Origin: Clostridia bacterium
GTDB taxonomy: Bacteria; Bacillota; Clostridia; Oscillospirales; Acutalibacteraceae
Direction of reading: 5' to 3'
DNA length: 64,000 nt
Assembly (NCBI GenBank): GCA_017473165.1
Contig: JAFUNA010000014.1
Span: 1-64,000, forward strand
Shown: positions 36,275-44,738 of the stretch, piece after piece
Position numbering within the stretch: the first letter of the stretch is position 1
How the letters are laid out: each line of letters opens with the position of its first letter
Made by a program: the position numbers and the translations under genes
Notes under the pieces: generated by a model
Database searches by the model: none
What the model was told of the DNA's origin: nothing
The model's input: the letters and a program-made list of their open reading frames with translations, nothing else

Positions 36275-36600
36275 ATTAACAATTAAACACACCTTAACAA
36301 GCAAACTACCACAAGCTAAAGTGCATAGTGCAGAGTGCAAAATAAGGGTCTGCGACGCAATTATATGCGGGATGTCGAGGACGCCGTCCCCTACGGCTGA
36401 AATAAATTTTAACGGTAGGGCGGGATGACCTCATCCCGCCGAAAAATAATCGCTGTAATCCACGGCGGCTTGGGGTCAAGCCGCCCTACATTCGAATTGA
36501 AGTATCATGGCAGGAACTGAATACCGCTTGCGGTGGAGGGATTCCTTATCCGCCCGAATAAAATCGGTCATAGGCGAAGCCTATCACACTTTGCACTTAA
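36275..36600 (+). repeat. hairpin-mosaic intergenic repeat, copy 1
   Basis: About 90 percent identical by eye to the complement of 53109-53467. Built from GC-rich hairpins: GGGATGTCGAGGACGCCGTCCC, split here as GGGATG...CGTCCC (36371-36392); GGCGGGATGA/TCATCCCGCC (36420-36441); GGCGGCTTG/CAAGCCGCC (36463-36484); CCGCTTGCGG; ATAGGC/GCCTAT. Ends carry AAGTGCAAAGTG-type inverted motifs. No reading frame. It occupies the intergenic space between the acyl-CoA synthetase terminator and the protease promoter. Confidence 0.75.
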
Positions 36601-36676: not shown

Positions 36677-38980
36677 TTAGCCGTTTGCTTTTTCAAGATC
36701 CTTTTTGCGGATTTCAGCACGTCTTACCTTACCGCTGATGGTCTTGGGAAGCTCATCAACAAATTCCACGATTCTGGGATATTTGTAGGGAGCGGTGTGA
36801 GTTTTGACGTATTCCTGAATTTCCTTTTTGAGTGCATCCGTGCCGACCGTGCCCTTTGTGAGAACAATGGTAGCCTTGACAATCTGACCTCTTACCTCAT
36901 CGGGAACGGGTGTGATTGCACATTCAAGAACATAAGGAAGCTCCATGATAACGCTTTCAATCTCGAAGGGTCCTATGCGGTAGCCCGACGATTTGATAAC
37001 GTCGTCAATACGTCCGACATACCAGAGATAGCCGTCTTCGTCCATGGTTGCGGTATCGCCCGTATGATAGTAGCCGTCATGCCATACTTCCTTTGTTTTT
37101 TCTTCGTCCAGATAGTAGCCGATAAACAGACCGCAGGGTGCACCGTCCTTTGTGCGGATGCAGATTTCGCCGGTATCGCCCGTTTTGCATTCGTTGCCGT
37201 CGGGGTCAAGAACAACAACATCGTAAAGCGGACTGGGCTTGCCCATTGAACCGATTTTGGGAGTTGAACCAACGAAATTGGCGATTGAAAGAGTGGTTTC
37301 GGTCTGACCGAAGCCTTCCATTATGGTAAGACCCGTTGCCTTCTTGAACTGGTTGAACACCTCGGGGTTGAGTGCTTCGCCCGCAGTTGTTGCATATTCA
37401 ATGGAAGAAAGGTCATACTTTGACAAATCTTCTTTGATGAAGAATCTGTACATGGTGGGAGGTGCACAGAAGGTTGTGATGTTGTATTTCTTGAAGAGAG
37501 GAAGAATATCGTCGGAATGGAATCTGTCGAAATCGTAGGTGAATATGCCTGCCTCGCAGAGCCACTGACCGTAGAGCTTGCCCCAGAGTGCCTTGCCCCA
37601 GCCCGTGTCGGAAATTGTGAAATGAAGTCCGTCGGGATTTACATTGTGCCAATGCTTTGCGGTGGGATAATGACCCAGAGCATATTTATATGAGTGGGTT
37701 GCAATGCGGGGATAGCCCGTTGTGCCCGAAGTGAAGAGCATGAGCATGGGGTCATCGCCGCAAGGTGAATTTTCGTTGCGGAAATAATGAGTGCTGAAGC
37801 GTTCCATTTCAACATTGAAGTCGTTCCAGCCTTCTTTTTTGCCGCCGACAAGAATTTTTGTTAAGCCGGGGAATTCGGCAGCTGCCTTTTCGGCTTCAAC
37901 GGAAACATCTCCGTCAGCCGTGCAAACAATTGCCTTTACGCCCGCTGCCTTATATCTGTAGGTAAAATCGTGCTCAACAAGCTGGTTTGTTGCGGGAATT
38001 GCTATTGCACCAATCTTATGAAGAGCAAGCATACAGAACCAGAACTGATAATGACGCTTGAGAACAAGCATAACCGTATCGCCGCGTTTGATTCCGAGAG
38101 ATTCAAAATAGTTTGCGGTTTTTGCGGAATATTTCTTCATGTCGCTGAAGGTGAATCTGCGTTCGGATTTATCGTTGCCTACCCACATCATTGCAAGCTT
38201 GTCGGGATTCTTTGCCGCAATTGCGTCAACACAGTCGAATGCGAAATTGAATTTGTCCGCATTTTTGAACGAAATGCCGTTGAACACGCCGTTTTCGTCA
38301 TATGAAGATTCGATGAAATCATCGGCAACGGTTTTTGCCGATTTCTTTTCGGCGGCAACCGCTTTTGAAGCAATATAAGGTGCTTCGGGATATTCCTCGC
38401 TGACCTGTCCGTCCTGGGGATTAAGAACAACCGCATGGAATTCGCAGCCGCCCTCGCTGACGGCAATCATGCCGTGGGGAATGAGGCTGTTATAGAAAAT
38501 CGAGTCACCCTCGTTGAGAACATCAACGTGGTTACCGACCTGAACTTTGAGAGAGCCCTTGACAATTACGTCAAACTCCTGACCGTTATGGGAGCTGAGC
38601 TTGATGGGAGCATTCTGCTCCTCCTCAAGATAAGGGAACTTTACAAGGAAGGGCTCGGCAAGCTTATCCTTGAATTTGGGTGCAAGGTTATTATAAACAA
38701 AGCCTTTTTTCTTAATAATTTTAAGACCCTCGCCTTTTCTTGTTATTGCGAACGAGGTAAGAGTTGAGCTTCTGCCTTCAAGAAGATCAACAACTTCAAC
38801 GCCGCAGGCTTTTGCAAACTTATAGATAAATGTAAAGCTGAAATCGGTTTCGCCCTGTTCAAGAATTTTATAGTCCTCAACCGATACGCCCGTGAGCTTC
38901 GCAAGCTCCTCTTGCGAATAACCCGTTGCTTCTCGCAGGTCTTTGATTCTGCCTGCAACTTCCTTAAGATTGTAGTCCAT
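36677..38980 (-). CDS. HTH-cupin-acyl-CoA synthetase fusion protein
   Basis: Product of 767 residues in three parts. Residues 1-65: XRE-type helix-turn-helix (VAGRIKDLREATGYSQEELA, LTGVSVEDYKILEQGETDFS). Residues 90-185: cupin (SSHNGQEFDVIVKGSLKVQV, VLNEGDSIFYNSLIPHGMIA). Residues 215-765: AMP-forming ligase of the medium-chain acyl-CoA synthetase type, with P-loop LMLFTSGTTGYPRIATHS, MEGFGQTETTLSIANF, GYYHTGDTATMDEDGYLWYV, DDVIKSSGYRIGPFEIE and the acylation lysine in PKTISGKVRRAEIR. It should make an acyl-CoA from a carboxylic acid, ATP and CoA; the front half could sense a ligand or bind DNA. Start ATG 38980 behind AAAGGAG. A T-box leader (39021-39287) controls it, which is unusual for this enzyme class. 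Confidence 0.88.
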   Translation of the reverse strand: MDYNLKEVAGRIKDLREATGYSQEELAKLTGVSVEDYKILEQGETDFSFTFIYKFAKACGVEVVDLLEGRSSTLTSFAITRKGEGLKIIKKKGFVYNNLAPKFKDKLAEPFLVKFPYLEEEQNAPIKLSSHNGQEFDVIVKGSLKVQVGNHVDVLNEGDSIFYNSLIPHGMIAVSEGGCEFHAVVLNPQDGQVSEEYPEAPYIASKAVAAEKKSAKTVADDFIESSYDENGVFNGISFKNADKFNFAFDCVDAIAAKNPDKLAMMWVGNDKSERRFTFSDMKKYSAKTANYFESLGIKRGDTVMLVLKRHYQFWFCMLALHKIGAIAIPATNQLVEHDFTYRYKAAGVKAIVCTADGDVSVEAEKAAAEFPGLTKILVGGKKEGWNDFNVEMERFSTHYFRNENSPCGDDPMLMLFTSGTTGYPRIATHSYKYALGHYPTAKHWHNVNPDGLHFTISDTGWGKALWGKLYGQWLCEAGIFTYDFDRFHSDDILPLFKKYNITTFCAPPTMYRFFIKEDLSKYDLSSIEYATTAGEALNPEVFNQFKKATGLTIMEGFGQTETTLSIANFVGSTPKIGSMGKPSPLYDVVVLDPDGNECKTGDTGEICIRTKDGAPCGLFIGYYLDEEKTKEVWHDGYYHTGDTATMDEDGYLWYVGRIDDVIKSSGYRIGPFEIESVIMELPYVLECAITPVPDEVRGQIVKATIVLTKGTVGTDALKKEIQEYVKTHTAPYKYPRIVEFVDELPKTISGKVRRAEIRKKDLEKANG

Positions 38981-39020
38981 GTTTTTTTGCTCCTTTCGTT
39001 GTATTTGCTTTGAGGAAAAC

Positions 39021-39287
39021 AAAAACGCCCCAAAGCAATTTTTATTGCTTTGAGACGAGTAAAATCTAACCCGCGGTACCACTCAAATTGCACTTTTCGT
39101 GCCGCTCAACGGACTCCAACAAGCCCTACGCTTTAACGCAGCGTCTACGGAAGCTGTCTACTCGTTAAAAAACTTTCGGAGCTTCTGCTCGGAAGGGATA
39201 GCTTTGAACTGTTCCGCTGACGGCTCGCACCAAACGCCGCCTCTCTGAAAACTTTGCAATTCAGCTTTCTTCGTCATAGCTTTTATG
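39021..39287 (-). promoter_or_regulatory. T-box leader (tRNA-sensing riboswitch)
   Basis: On the minus strand: a Stem I apex with CAGAGAGGCGGC and TTGGTGCGAGCCG, later the T-box sequence AGTGGTACCGCGG (39072-39084), then terminator stem CAAAGCAAT/ATTGCTTTG with T-rich tail (39021-39052). Promoter TTGACA-N17-TATTAT lies just upstream. A candidate specifier is UUC (Phe), complement of 39206-39208, followed by A; AUC (Ile), complement of 39197-39199, is an alternative. The specifier was folded by hand and is uncertain; the T-box itself is clear. Confidence 0.9.
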
Positions 39288-39293
39288 TGAGAT

Positions 39294-39322
39294 ATAATAT
39301 CACCGAATTTTTGATTTGTCAA
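39294..39322 (-). promoter_or_regulatory. sigma-A promoter of the T-box leader
   Basis: Minus strand TTGACA (39317-39322), 17 bases, TATTAT (39294-39299). Confidence 0.8.
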
Positions 39323-39330
39323 TAGTTTTT

Positions 39331-39373
39331 TTATAAAAAAGGGAGTGCCCTGTGCCGCATGATGACACAGGGC
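39331..39373 (-). terminator. terminator ahead of the T-box promoter
   Basis: Perfect 8-bp stem GCCCTGTG/CACAGGGC (39366-39373 and 39347-39354, 11-base loop) followed on the minus strand by seven T. It ends transcription from the 39486 gene or from the orphan promoter at 39449. Confidence 0.9.
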
Positions 39374-39448
39374 TGCGAATGAAAAAAGGAAAAAGCATTT
39401 CCGAGGAGATGTCAATCAAAAAGTCGTTTTATTTATCCCACTCATTAT

Positions 39449-39478
39449 ATAAGATGCTTTAAAAACCGATTTGGTCTA
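39449..39478 (-). promoter_or_regulatory. ECF-like promoter, site C, with no gene behind it
   Basis: Minus strand TAGACC (39473-39478), 16 bases, CATCTTATAT (39447-39456), then GAGTGGG. One base differs from the CGTC of the other three sites. Downstream there is only about 110 bases to the terminator at 39331. Confidence 0.5.
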
Positions 39479-39485
39479 TGATTTT

Positions 39486-40391
39486 TTAAGAATTTATATA
39501 TTTTTTGTATTTTTTATTTGCAACCGCTAAAATCACGGCACCGATCAGCAGATAAATAACGGTAAGCTTCATCTGCAAATATATGAAATCACTTGAGAAA
39601 AGAGTTTCAAGGAAGGGGTTGAACTCGGAGCGGATATGAAGCACATATTTCTCTCCGTCAATGCTGTAAAAATCGGTAGTATAATATTCATCAAAGCTTC
39701 CGCTGTTATATGAATCTGCGATTTCAATGGAATCTCCTGTCCAGCCGGCAAGCTCGTCTGAAACTCCGTTCAGGACATCTTCGCTGAATGCTTTCTCGCA
39801 GAGCAATTTATATAACTTATGATTATGGTGGTTTTCGTCAATTTCCCAGCTTTTCGTGTTAAAATACCACGTTACATAATCAGACGAGTATTCGGCTTTT
39901 TCTTCAGAGAAAACAACTTCTTCTTTAACATCCCGCCATGAACCCGTTTGTGACATCAACATCCTGACAGGAATAATTTCACCATTTTTAATATTATAAT
40001 CTAAACATTTAACAGTCATACCATGGTCTTTTCCGAATTCACAAATCTGTTTTCTGATATCCGAGGTCAGATAATCGTCCAATCTGCAGAAGCTTTCATC
40101 CTTTATTATTTCAACATATGCTCCCGTCTGTGAAACAACATTTCCTTCCGAATCATAGAGAATTGCAGCGGTCGGAAAACCGAATCCGACTGTTCTCACT
40201 TCTCTCACTGTACGCTCAATATCGTAATCCCTGTTAACGATATCAAGACAAAATTCATTCAAATAAGATGTGTAACGGTTGAAATCCTCCAAATAATTCC
40301 CCCTGACACTGCTGAATATAAAATAAGTATTCACGCTGTAAAACACAAGAATAATTGCAAGAATTGCAGCAAAAAGATTTTTCTTTTTCAC
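39486..40391 (-). CDS. membrane protein with large extracytoplasmic sensor-like domain
   Basis: Product of 301 residues. A transmembrane helix at about 6-25 (FAAILAIILVFYSVNTYFIF) and a second at about 273-290 (MKLTVIYLLIGAVILAVA) enclose about 245 extracytoplasmic residues, followed by only a short basic tail (NKKYKKYINS). The layout matches the input half of a sensor kinase or chemoreceptor without any cytoplasmic output domain. The outer domain contains FPTAAILYDSEGNVVSQTGA, a PAS/Cache-like strand pair. I chose the GTG at 40389-40391, 8 bases after GGAG; another GTG three codons upstream overlaps that site. It follows the zinc-ribbon gene by 39 bases. Function unknown. Confidence 0.7.
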   Translation of the reverse strand: MKKKNLFAAILAIILVFYSVNTYFIFSSVRGNYLEDFNRYTSYLNEFCLDIVNRDYDIERTVREVRTVGFGFPTAAILYDSEGNVVSQTGAYVEIIKDESFCRLDDYLTSDIRKQICEFGKDHGMTVKCLDYNIKNGEIIPVRMLMSQTGSWRDVKEEVVFSEEKAEYSSDYVTWYFNTKSWEIDENHHNHKLYKLLCEKAFSEDVLNGVSDELAGWTGDSIEIADSYNSGSFDEYYTTDFYSIDGEKYVLHIRSEFNPFLETLFSSDFIYLQMKLTVIYLLIGAVILAVANKKYKKYINS

Positions 40392-41095: not shown

Positions 41096-42883
41096 TTAAA
41101 TTAAATTTTCAAGTCTGAAAATTCGGACAAGCTTTTCAAGAACATTGCTGAAAAAGATATTGAACTTATCTTCAAAATCCGTTTCAACTTCTCTTTCGGC
41201 AATAACTCCGATGTTGGCGGTTATGTAATCTGCCTTCGCCTGTGCGAAATCAGCAACCTTCTTTACGTCTGCCACATACTTTGTTTTTATTTCTGCGATA
41301 TCCGATGTGCCGTAGGTATTCCAGCGGATTGCATTTGCAACTGCGGAACCTTCGGTGTTTTCAGCGTATTCGGTTGTAATATATTCCGCCGCTTCTACTA
41401 CTGCGGATTTGATAACACCGTTCCACTTTTCTTTGCACATATCAATGAACTGCTGATTCTTTGTGATGTGATTATAGAATGTAGGGATATCGGATGTATC
41501 ACCCGCACCGAGGATTGTTACGCCGTAAAGTCTGCTGTGGCAGACTGTCCACTGTTCAGGCTTATTGTAATCAATACCGAATCTTATTCTGTCGCAGTTG
41601 CCGAATGCTCTGTCGTAATCCCAAACGGGACCTGCATAGAGAGTATCGTTAACGGGTTTATAGAGATATGTGCTTGTCAGACCCGCATCATGGTTTGCAT
41701 ACCATTCGTTAAGAAGATAAACATCAACCAGCGACTCAACATTGCAGTATTTTGCAATTTCGGCAAGTCCCTTGTTTCCGTAAACCGCATTTTCAAAATT
41801 CTGATACCAGCCGCTGATATACTCAATCTGCTCTTTCGATGCGTATTCGGGGGATTTAAGAATAATCGCCTGGCTGTTTTCGGTAACAAAACCGCTTATC
41901 TCTTCATCATATCTCGAAGGAAGCTCGGTTTCGATTATGTATCCGCCGGTTATATCTTTGGGATTGTTGGGAATTTCAATCCACTTTTTGGTATTTTCAA
42001 GATATCCGCTTGTTGAACCGTAAACACCGCCTCTGGGAAGAGCTTCGATATCAACATCGGGGTTTGCTTCTTCGTTTTCATCCTCAAGATTCTGAATATT
42101 GACTCTTGTTTTGTCAACCTCAACTCTTGTTGTGAGAAGATATGCACCTTCATAATTTCCGTTGATATAAACATCAACGGGTGTGAATTTCGGGGTATAG
42201 GGTACGCCCGCATTTTCAGCCGCAAGATAAGCAAGACTGTTTCTTAAAAGAGATGTATCGGCATAGTTTGCAATCAGACTCCACTTCTTGCTTTTGCCCA
42301 TACCGAAAAGGTTTTCTTTTTCTTCAAGCTTGATGTTATAGGGCTTCTTTGGCATTCCCCATGTTGAATTGCCTCTGCCCTTGATATAGTCAAGAAGCCC
42401 CGCACATTCGGTTTCACCGTCGGTATTTATAATTGTAATTTTGCCCTTTTCTTTATGCTCTTTATCAGCATGAACGGCATCAAGACTGCCGCTTTCGGTT
42501 TCGATGAATACGGAAGCTACCTTTGATTCATTAAAAATAACAACGTCATAGCTTGCTCCGTCACAGGTCAAAGTCACCTGCTGCTTATCCTTAAGGAACG
42601 CAGCGGAATCACCGTCAGTAAGCTTGGTTTCGCCGCAATATACATCGGCAGAAGCCGCAAAATCAATCACCGCTTCGTCAAGGCTCATTACAGCGGGAAC
42701 AAAAAGATAATATTTTGAGTTGCTTGCAAACCAGTTCACAGCAATGTCTGCATCATTCTCGGAATCCGTTATGTTCTTAATTGAAAAAGAAGTAATACCC
42801 GCTGCATCTGCAGCAAAAGAAGAAACGGAAAGAACGGAAAAGCTTAAAATCAACGCCAGAATGAGAGCAATTATTTTTTTCAT
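41096..42883 (-). CDS. secreted CotH-family protein kinase-like protein, copy 2
   Basis: Product of 595 residues. Signal peptide (IIALILALILSFSVLSVSSF). After a beta-sandwich of about 110 residues comes the CotH domain: LLDYIKGRGNSTWGMPKKPY, KENLFGMGKSKKWSLIANYA, LRNSLAYLAAENAGVPYTP, VDVYINGNYEGAYLLTTRVE, LLNEWYANHDAGLTSTYLYK and AGPVWDYDRAFGNCD. CotH of Bacillus is an atypical kinase that phosphorylates spore coat proteins; in Clostridia many CotH proteins are exported and attached to the surface. No dockerin or LPXTG; the C terminus is the amphipathic segment FNIFFSNVLEKLVRIFRL. About half identical to the gene just upstream, with the same architecture, so a tandem duplication. RBS CGGAGG. 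Confidence 0.88.
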   Translation of the reverse strand: MKKIIALILALILSFSVLSVSSFAADAAGITSFSIKNITDSENDADIAVNWFASNSKYYLFVPAVMSLDEAVIDFAASADVYCGETKLTDGDSAAFLKDKQQVTLTCDGASYDVVIFNESKVASVFIETESGSLDAVHADKEHKEKGKITIINTDGETECAGLLDYIKGRGNSTWGMPKKPYNIKLEEKENLFGMGKSKKWSLIANYADTSLLRNSLAYLAAENAGVPYTPKFTPVDVYINGNYEGAYLLTTRVEVDKTRVNIQNLEDENEEANPDVDIEALPRGGVYGSTSGYLENTKKWIEIPNNPKDITGGYIIETELPSRYDEEISGFVTENSQAIILKSPEYASKEQIEYISGWYQNFENAVYGNKGLAEIAKYCNVESLVDVYLLNEWYANHDAGLTSTYLYKPVNDTLYAGPVWDYDRAFGNCDRIRFGIDYNKPEQWTVCHSRLYGVTILGAGDTSDIPTFYNHITKNQQFIDMCKEKWNGVIKSAVVEAAEYITTEYAENTEGSAVANAIRWNTYGTSDIAEIKTKYVADVKKVADFAQAKADYITANIGVIAEREVETDFEDKFNIFFSNVLEKLVRIFRLENLI

Positions 42884-42944: not shown

Positions 42945-44738
42945 TTATTCCATGTTTTCAAGACCGAAAAGAACGATTGCCTTTTCAAAAAGATTGTTTA
43001 CGCCGACAAGAATACCCTTGAACGCCTTAACAACAAAGTTTGTTTCGGGAGCATTGTTCTGAACCTGTCCGATTCCCGAGCTGATTGTTGATGCCTTTGT
43101 GCGTGCAAACTGCAAAACAGAAGCGGTTTCGGCTTCAAACTTATCCTCGATTGTTTCAACATCGGTTGTTCCGAAAATGTTCCAGCGGATTGCGTTTGCG
43201 ACTGCCGAGCCTTCGAGTGCATTGACATAGTCGCCGCCGATATAAGTTATTGTTTCCTTAACGGCTTTTTCCATATAGTCAAACCATACTCTGTCTGCCT
43301 TTGCGATGAAATCGCCGTTTTTGCAGATTACATTATATATAGTGGGCTTTTCTTCAACATCCCACTTGCCGAAAACGGTGTTTCTGTACATTCTGTTGTA
43401 GCATACGGTCCACTTATAGGGGTCTGTGTAGTCATTGCCGAAGCGGTCAAGGTCATTGTTGCCGAATGCAATGTCAAAATCCCAGACGGGACCTGCATGG
43501 AGAGGCTCGCCGACGGGCTTATAGAAATATGTGCTTGTGAGAGAAGCGTCCATGTTTGAGCACCATTCGTTGATAAGGTACATCTGTGCCATGGATTCAA
43601 CGTCAAGAATTCCGTTGAGCTCGCTCATATCAACGCTTGCATAGATTGCATCTTCAACCTTCTGATAGTAGCTGCTGATATATTCCATCTGTGCCTTTGA
43701 AGCATATTCGGGGGATTTCATTGTGAAGGGCTGGCTTCTGCTTGTAACAAAGCCGCTGACCTCACCCGCATATCTGTTTGCAAGCTCCATTTCGATAACG
43801 TAGCCGCCTGTGATATCCTCGGGATCGTTGGGAATTTCAACCCACTTCATTGTGTTTTCAAGAAGACCTGCATACTTGCCGTAAGCACCGCCTCTGGGAA
43901 GAGCTTCGATATCAACATCGGGGTTTGCTTCTTCGTTTGCATCTTCAAGATTCTGAATGTTGATTCTTGTTTTGTCAACTTCGATTCTTGTTGTGAGGAG
44001 ATATGCACCCTCATAGTTTCCGTTGATATAAACATCAACGGGAACGAAAAGAGGAGTATATTCCATGCCCGCTCTCTTTGCAGCTTCATAAGCAAGTGCA
44101 TTTCTTATGAGCGAAGCATCACCGTGGTTTGCAATAAGGCTCCACTTCTTGCTCTTGCCCATGCCGAAAAGATTTGCTTTTTCGTCAAGCTTGATGTTAT
44201 AAGGCTTCTTTTCCATTTCCCATGTAGAATTTCCTCTGCCCTTAATCTGGTCAAGAACACCGTCATATTCGATTTCGCCGTCTGCATTAACGATTTCGAT
44301 GAATCCCTTTTCCTTGTGGCTTTTATCTGCATGGATTGCATCAAGCGAGCCCGACTCTGTTGCGATGAATACGGATGCAACCTTTGACTCTTTAAGAATA
44401 ACAACATTGTATGTTACGCCGTCAGAAACAACTGCTGCCTCTGTTTTTTCACCGAAAGCTTCGGTAAGTGATTTTGCCTCGGTATAAGCCGCACCGTTAA
44501 CGGTTACGTTTGAACCGGAAACATAGAATTTCGCTGTGTCACAATCGATTGATGCGGGAATAAAGATGTAGTATTTGCCGTTAACCTCGTACCAATTGAC
44601 AACTCTGTCAACGTCGCCCTCTGTTTCGTCATACTGTGCAACGTATGCCGTAACAGGCTGTCCGTCTGCATAGCCGAGCATTGCGAATGCCGAGAATGCC
44701 ATTACCAATGCAAGTAAAAGTGCTGTTAATTTTTTCAT
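42945..44738 (-). CDS. secreted CotH-family protein kinase-like protein, copy 1
   Basis: Product of 597 residues with the same plan as its neighbour: signal peptide (LTALLLALVMAFSAFAMLGY, cleavage near ADG), beta domain to about 130, CotH domain with LDQIKGRGNSTWEMEKKPY, ANLFGMGKSKKWSLIANHG, VDVYINGNYEGAYLLTTRIE, LINEWCSNMDASLTSTYFYK and AGPVWDFDIAFGNND. The C terminus again has an amphipathic segment, VNNLFEKAIVLFGL. CotH enzymes use an atypical ATP-binding kinase fold; the outer location raises the question of where ATP would come from. It starts 21 bases after the phosphoglucomutase gene (RBS AAAGGAG) and is probably cotranscribed with it. Substrate proteins unknown. Confidence 0.88.
   Translation of the reverse strand: MKKLTALLLALVMAFSAFAMLGYADGQPVTAYVAQYDETEGDVDRVVNWYEVNGKYYIFIPASIDCDTAKFYVSGSNVTVNGAAYTEAKSLTEAFGEKTEAAVVSDGVTYNVVILKESKVASVFIATESGSLDAIHADKSHKEKGFIEIVNADGEIEYDGVLDQIKGRGNSTWEMEKKPYNIKLDEKANLFGMGKSKKWSLIANHGDASLIRNALAYEAAKRAGMEYTPLFVPVDVYINGNYEGAYLLTTRIEVDKTRINIQNLEDANEEANPDVDIEALPRGGAYGKYAGLLENTMKWVEIPNDPEDITGGYVIEMELANRYAGEVSGFVTSRSQPFTMKSPEYASKAQMEYISSYYQKVEDAIYASVDMSELNGILDVESMAQMYLINEWCSNMDASLTSTYFYKPVGEPLHAGPVWDFDIAFGNNDLDRFGNDYTDPYKWTVCYNRMYRNTVFGKWDVEEKPTIYNVICKNGDFIAKADRVWFDYMEKAVKETITYIGGDYVNALEGSAVANAIRWNIFGTTDVETIEDKFEAETASVLQFARTKASTISSGIGQVQNNAPETNFVVKAFKGILVGVNNLFEKAIVLFGLENME

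Follow-up and report, generated by a model that had tools for sequence, protein, structure and literature searches.

The DNA analysed here, a 64,000-nucleotide stretch from a Clostridia bacterium of the family Acutalibacteraceae (GenBank assembly GCA_017473165.1, contig JAFUNA010000014.1, positions 1 to 64,000; the window), carries on its reverse strand a gene that joins a helix-turn-helix (HTH) domain, a cupin domain and an AMP-forming acyl-CoA synthetase (ACS), preceded by a T-box leader RNA. The gene lies at 36677..38980 (-), stop codon included, and encodes 767 amino acids from an ATG start chosen by eye; the open reading frame list gives a longer frame of 801 amino acids. The HTH domain covers residues 12-65 (38786..38947, -; HTH_3, 36.1 bits, cut-off 23) and the cupin domain residues 127-184 (38429..38602, -; Cupin_2, 33.9 bits, cut-off 27.2). 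The ACS domains, delimited by Pfam and alignments, span residues 253-751 (36728..38224, -), with AMP-binding (PF00501, residues 253-623, 199.2 bits) and AMP-binding_C (PF13193, residues 673-751, 77.9 bits) both over their cut-offs. HTH_31 also exceeded its Pfam cut-off, and HTH_19 scored below. The YXXGD motif of the ACS superfamily aligns as YHTGD and, with the PF00501 and PF13193 matches, places the enzyme in that superfamily, and the HTH and Cupin_2 matches place the N-terminal part, by sequence, with the XRE-cupin regulators. The three-part protein described by a first-pass annotation of this DNA is thus present as a single gene.

The leader RNA, from Stem I to the antiterminator, occupies 39048..39286 (-). 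A covariance search of the window with RF00230 returned it as the sole Rfam T-box, a full-length match (model positions 1-219) that scored 96.1 bits, the gathering threshold being 93. The RF00230 alignment places the T-box motif AGUGGUACCGCGG, including the UGGU sequence that binds the acceptor end, at 39071..39083 (-). A sigma-70-type promoter, TTGACA-17-TATTAT, precedes the leader at 39294..39322 (-) and matches the consensus at 11 of 12 positions; a similar promoter layout was seen by eye in relatives. The site scan and the fold both give an intrinsic terminator hairpin at 39026..39057 (-), with 14 pairs in its stem and a tail rich in T, which competes with the antiterminator, and the fold of the 3' part of the leader has a z of -2.55. 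A ribosome-binding site, AGGAG, was located by eye at 38990..38994 (-). By itself, the scan of 38950-39500 is weak support because its counts are only modestly above those in shuffles (promoter-like sites, 2 vs 0.9; terminator-like sites, 2 vs 0.7). The UGGN motif together with the competing terminator assigns the element to the T-box class. The complete leader that had been noted ahead of a single gene is therefore confirmed.

Specifier triplets of the fusion leaders

We read the specifier as AUC (Ile) at 39197..39199 (-), from the sequence and from relatives. It ends the specifier loop on the 3' side, a single base ahead of the CUUC helix strand, and the 3' side of Stem I in the window runs CAGUUC-AA-AGCU-AUC-C-CUUC. 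A TBDB passage on the '+0' rule names the specifier place as one base before the helix strand, and AUC fits it. Applied by eye to control leaders of the same genome, the same rule gave UAC for tyrS, UUC for pheS and AUC for ileS, genes which were themselves named by eye from translations; the alaS leader gave no clear reading. Of the two candidates first suggested, UUC and AUC, only the latter stands, the window's UUC lying just upstream, inside a helix. The accompanying idea that phenylacetate is activated to yield Phe is not supported: apart from a second match in locus L069 that is due to chance, UUC did not occupy the specifier place in any fusion leader that was read. A third specifier for Leu, which would have matched isovalerate, was likewise looked for on the fusion gene and was absent from the leaders read.

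The close relatives comprise the best 80 of 560 from a scan of GTDB contigs, all of them Clostridia metagenome-assembled genomes, and those record titles that give a source point to the ruminant caecum, colon or rectum. GGTACCGCG was found by script in 73 of 77 relative leaders (the 80 loci minus L052, L095 and L103, where upstream DNA is short). With a pattern that left the triplet open, the specifier place read AUC in 77 of 79 rows, two of the 77 having a second match elsewhere; upstream DNA was short in the other two rows, and L105, which gave no row, reads AUC by eye. The recurrence of GGTACCGCG and of AUC at these frequencies means that the leader element is not a chance match.

We expanded the survey first to the family, where 35 of 60 genomes matched at E 1e-100, and then to the class, where 181 of 391 matched at E 1e-180. 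Eighty stretches were fetched, and the class search gave 29 new loci. The final reading of 117 rows is 71 AUC, 33 GUA (Val), 3 unreadable and 10 without a T-box. The script pass had called 61 AUC, 29 GUA and 1 AAG and left 26 rows without a call, and the remainder were re-read by pattern or by eye. This re-reading gave AUC for L145, L147, L150, L165, L168, L171 and L174 (by pattern) and L135 (by eye). AUC was also the reading for two rows with a degenerate T-box, L182 by the pattern and L139 by eye. It gave GUA for L199 (by pattern), for L200 and L229 (by eye) and for L194, the AAG of the script, which is GUA by eye. Rows L167, L175 and L209 are unreadable because their upstream DNA is too short. 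The 10 rows in which we saw no T-box are four fusions (L187, L188, L191 and L211) and six split genes (L127, L143, L144, L146, L234 and L235). On the fusion gene, AUC and GUA are the only specifiers among the leaders read. The stray triplets are accounted for by the misread L194, by second matches in L066 and L069, and by chance matches in L028 and L143, which lack a T-box motif.

In the helix that follows the specifier, the CUUC:GAAG pairing is kept in 52 or 53 of 53 leaders at each of its four pairs. The pairing partner of the AGCU before AUC lies on the 5' side, and the mean run of pairs was 4.48 with the leader's own partner vs 3.40 with shuffled partners in 33 AUC leaders, and 5.35 vs 3.46 in 20 GUA leaders. 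None of 500 shuffles reached either value, a count that is not a probability, since the sequences are related. This helix was scored by a script with shuffled partners; the MAFFT leader alignment (A2) loses its register. The A2 segments were picked by a pattern requiring ATC or GTA, so that specifier diversity is tested by the open-triplet readings and not by A2.

The two specifiers also divide the proteins. In a tree of 88 fusions, which kept 8 of the 30 fusions more than 86% identical to that of the window, all 31 GUA-labelled rows fall in one clade of 34 (SH-aLRT 100). The other three members are L229 and L199, both GUA on re-reading, and the unreadable L209. Outside this clade are all 48 AUC-labelled rows, L182, L139 and the four fusions without a T-box.

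The predicted acid-binding pocket of the synthetase

The nearest solved chain to the ACS domain is 3ETC (685 bits), the MacsMa enzyme of Methanosarcina acetivorans, which is described in a passage of PMC10455477 as preferring 2-methylbutyrate. Trp259 of the MacsMa pocket aligns with W466 of the window's protein, and the Gly found where Acs has its pocket Trp corresponds, by sequence alignment, to G558; both residues are invariant in 50 fusions. We take this Trp to be the pocket residue of the two in Acs, and part of the Acs numbering is likewise assumed. The combination of W466 and G558 predicts a Macs-like pocket for branched acids.

Among NCBIfam models the best match is MbcS (NF047394), and Acetate--CoA ligase AcsA (TIGR02188) reaches 252.1 bits against an equivalog cut-off of 724.95. 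According to a section of PMC10026030, MbcS takes 2-methylbutyrate and isobutyrate, with butyrate and isovalerate as poor substrates. The two preferred acids are the pair that the AUC and GUA specifiers would predict, as precursors of Ile and Val, and we count this agreement in favor of the route proposed below.

To compare the paralogs, we aligned 51 AUC and 33 GUA rows, of which L182, L139, L199 and L229 were labelled by hand. Only two positions of the ACS domain, 462 and 465, have less than 5% overlap between the types, and both lie beside W466. Position 462 is Gly in 50 of 51 AUC rows and Ala in all 33 GUA rows; position 465 is Leu in 49 of 51 AUC rows and Met in 25 of 33 GUA rows. Position 462 aligns with the Val of the Val-Thr pair of acetyl-CoA synthetase (9g79), presumably a pocket residue, and its equivalent is Gly in MacsMa and Ala in the 4-hydroxybutyrate ligase 8biq. 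A natural guess from these residues is that the GUA type has a smaller pocket, which would suit a four-carbon acid. Most of the other discriminating positions at this threshold fall in the HTH-cupin part.

Linkage to VorB-type oxidoreductase genes

We examined the gene neighborhood in 82 loci, many of them short and one (L127) from the window's own genome. A VorB-type gene adjoins the fusion in 14 of them. Both VorA and VorC are present in 12 of the 14 (not in L128 or L210), and the aminotransferase IlvE in 10 (not in L128, L196, L200 or L210); L210 stops at its contig end. The usual gene order is ACS, ParA-like ATPase, VorB, VorA, VorC and IlvE. Seven of these loci (L128, L129, L132, L133, L194, L198 and L200) open with the two paralogs in tandem, the AUC type before the GUA type. 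The AUC type stands alone in L130, L135 and L137 and the GUA type in L131, L138 and L210, and L196 has the AUC type plus a second ACS copy split over three frames (L196:4075-5667). In addition, ileS lies near the AUC type in L134, L176 and L228, and valS directly follows the GUA type in L136. The NCBIfam matches exceed their cut-offs for VorB (549.5 vs 399) and the branched-chain aminotransferase (490.2 vs 307), as do those for ValS and IleS; VorA, VorC and a LeuA-like protein match their families below cut-off.

Linkage is matched by co-occurrence across genomes. VorB was detected (E 1e-100) in 61 of 69 fusion genomes vs 10 of 44 genomes without a match to the fusion (Fisher P = 1.8e-12) and, when only genomes with completeness of 90% or more and contamination of 5% or less were counted, in 48 of 50 vs 7 of 40 (Fisher P = 2.0e-15), P values that are uncorrected for kinship. 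The 69 are the genomes with fetched fusion loci, a part of all those with a match; the 44 are those listed by the family and class searches (20 of 210 in the class), whose limits differed; and genomes holding just an unfused synthetase fall in neither group. The first-pass annotation had proposed a 2-oxoacid:ferredoxin oxidoreductase (VOR) as the partner of the synthetase, and the adjoining VorB, VorA, VorC and, usually, IlvE genes of relatives, together with this co-occurrence, agree with that proposal. The window's genome has one VorB, on contig C31, accompanied by VorA, VorC, IlvE and a ParA-like gene. This cluster (L127) has its own split pair, an HTH-cupin gene and an ACS gene.

Other leaders and features were noted in passing. 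T-box motifs precede the LeuA-like gene beside some VOR operons (L128:16337, L131:12733, L133:4222 and L138:1897), and by eye these leaders carry a Leu codon as specifier, CUG in L128 and CUC in the other three. On contig C30 of the window's genome, the region 5' of ilvA (L123:3938-4440) contains two tandem Stem I-like units, which read by eye as AUC in the first and CUC in the second; only the second is followed by the GGTACCGC motif. This leader may integrate Ile and Leu signals. Within the window, 41096-42883 and 42945-44738 encode two similar tandem secreted proteins with, by eye, the look of CotH-type kinases, and the intergenic region 36350-36560 holds many GC palindromes (GGCGGGATGA..TCATCCCGCC and similar), perhaps a repeat family.

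A proposed route from branched acids to Ile and Val

We propose, with a probability of roughly three in four, that a T-box responding to tRNA-Ile drives a branched short-chain acyl-CoA synthetase that leads 2-methylbutyrate to Ile, and that the GUA paralog leads isobutyrate to Val. When Ile is short, uncharged tRNA-Ile would stabilize the antiterminator, and the fusion gene would be transcribed. The enzyme would convert scavenged 2-methylbutyrate and ATP to 2-methylbutyryl-CoA, a VorBAC-type oxidoreductase would carboxylate this reductively to 3-methyl-2-oxopentanoate, and IlvE would aminate the product to Ile. The sister paralog, under its GUA T-box, would supply Val from isobutyrate by the same steps. 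We think that the N-terminal HTH-cupin part is probably an autoregulator that senses the acid or its CoA ester. We favor the biosynthetic direction because the ACS spends ATP and the T-box turns the gene on under amino acid lack. 2-Methylbutyrate is the branched acid left by Ile fermentation, and papers from the 1960s are said to show that rumen anaerobes synthesize Ile from 2-methylbutyrate and Val from isobutyrate. All of these functions are predictions. More tentatively, the system may be a tRNA-addressed salvage, in which each paralog is switched on by the tRNA of the amino acid that its acid yields, so that the specifier predicts the substrate, and in which the protein's own HTH-cupin sensor adds a second input (amino acid lacking and acid present).

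Several observations weigh against the proposed route. The MbcS match scores 448.6 bits, below the equivalog cut-off of 850, and the pocket differences at 462 and 465 count as a single event because they are confined to one clade. In the window's genome the fusion gene stands alone, with the VOR cluster on another contig, and the Rfam search of that genome lists no T-box at the C31 cluster. The genome also has an ilvA-ilvB-ilvN-ilvC-ilvD operon with T-box stems (L123, by eye), so the fusion enzyme would provide a second route to Ile and not the only one. VorB is missing at the limit used from 8 of the 69 fusion genomes, two of them well assembled. No T-box was recognized in four fusions (L187, L188, L191 and L211), and most unfused relatives in the open-triplet reading are also without one: among 16 unfused or partial relatives the motif occurs in three, with AUC read in L025 and L030 but not in L035. 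Finally, a scan of the window's genome that covered 30 tRNA loci out of 32 matches did not find tRNA-Ile, nor did one of genome G056 (25 tRNA loci scanned, among 30 listed for 46 matches), and a pattern search for tRNA-Ile in three genomes gave no match.

The best surviving alternative, which we consider unlikely, is that 2-methylbutyrate is scavenged to prime branched-chain fatty acids, as it is by MbcS, and that Ile starvation serves as the signal because the anteiso primer normally comes from Ile. Among NCBIfam models, MbcS matches the synthetase best, and a section of PMC10026030 describes the MbcS of Staphylococcus aureus as feeding FabH. A T-box on Ile would fit this use as well, and no amino acid genes were recognized beside the window's gene. 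However, the gene's linkage in relatives is to VorB, VorA, VorC, IlvE, ileS and valS, and VorB co-occurs with it across genomes. Fatty acid priming and Ile synthesis could also coexist.

A less probable alternative is that the protein is mainly a DNA-binding regulator, whose ACS domain acts as a ligand sensor or makes the ligand of the cupin. The HTH and cupin domains are intact, the fusions without a T-box retain them and align across this part as well, and most residues that discriminate the AUC and GUA types lie there. In addition, 49 of the promoters of 66 close relatives have a conserved TTTGAATATCACA element 5' of the T-box. The window has no TTTGAATATCACA at 39287-39303 and shows instead an imperfect inverted repeat, GTGATAT..ATCTCAC, across the -10 element. 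The TTTGAATATCACA element and the window's repeat are possible operators of the HTH domain; in a search of the relatives' promoters TTTGAATATCACA was the only conserved element found, and the inverted-repeat count was mostly A/T runs. Against a purely regulatory role, much of the ACS shows no or almost no variation across 50 fusions, which applies to the C-terminal domain as well as to W466, and in other genomes a cupin gene stands next to a separate synthetase gene. A separate HTH-cupin gene adjoins the synthetase gene in L127, as does a gene annotated as cupin in two Bacteroidota records, and for this reason the fusion probably arose by the joining of an existing gene pair. In those records (L296 and L297, Parabacteroides and Bacteroides) the cupin and AMP-binding genes lie among proline/arginine biosynthesis genes with no VOR, hinting at a different acid or use.

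Least probable of all is a catabolic synthetase alongside an oxidative VOR that turns 2-oxoacids from branched-chain amino acids into acyl-CoA: VOR is reversible and best known from amino acid fermentation, but AMP-forming synthetases are well established to consume ATP in making acyl-CoA, and T-box induction under amino acid lack has the wrong sign for breakdown.

The leader resembles an Ile-type T-box (RF00230) in its AUC Stem I, UGGN motif, antiterminator and terminator, and by eye its specifier is that of the genome's ileS leader. It is set apart by a small specifier loop and by a flanking helix whose strands vary together. Unlike the usual T-box targets, which are tRNA synthetases, transporters and classical biosynthesis genes, the gene under control encodes an acyl-CoA synthetase. 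With MacsMa the protein has in common the pocket Trp and, at position 462, the Gly; however, MacsMa is archaeal, and its matched chain, an ACS of 580 residues, lacks the HTH-cupin part. The substrates of S. aureus MbcS fit the Ile and Val specifiers found here, whereas MbcS serves fatty acid synthesis, and the score here is far under its equivalog cut-off. XRE-cupin transcription regulators have the same HTH and Cupin_2 domains but are not fused to an enzyme. Passages of PMC2812497 and PMC7356843, one of which cites Robinson and Allison 1969, describe the conversion of 2-methylbutyrate to Ile and of isobutyrate to Val in the rumen. Whereas such passages on reductive carboxylation concern physiology or a methanogen genome, we propose a bacterial gene set and RNA control. 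No T-box before an acyl-CoA synthetase was found in the literature searched, with Vitreschak et al. 2008 and the TBDB target table outside the search, and in a word search "acyl-CoA" was absent from the main text of PMC2494555, PMC3766115 and PMC7778990. With the fusion leaders, a known riboswitch class apparently gains a new target and a new paired code, while the pathway itself is already known.

The proposal supplies genes and control for the long-known synthesis of Ile and Val from branched acids in the rumen. If it is correct, the leader RNAs would give a simple code for annotating acyl-CoA synthetases, whose substrates are hard to predict, and T-box regulation, beyond its role in the synthesis and uptake of amino acids, would also cover cross-feeding on volatile acids in the guts of ruminants.

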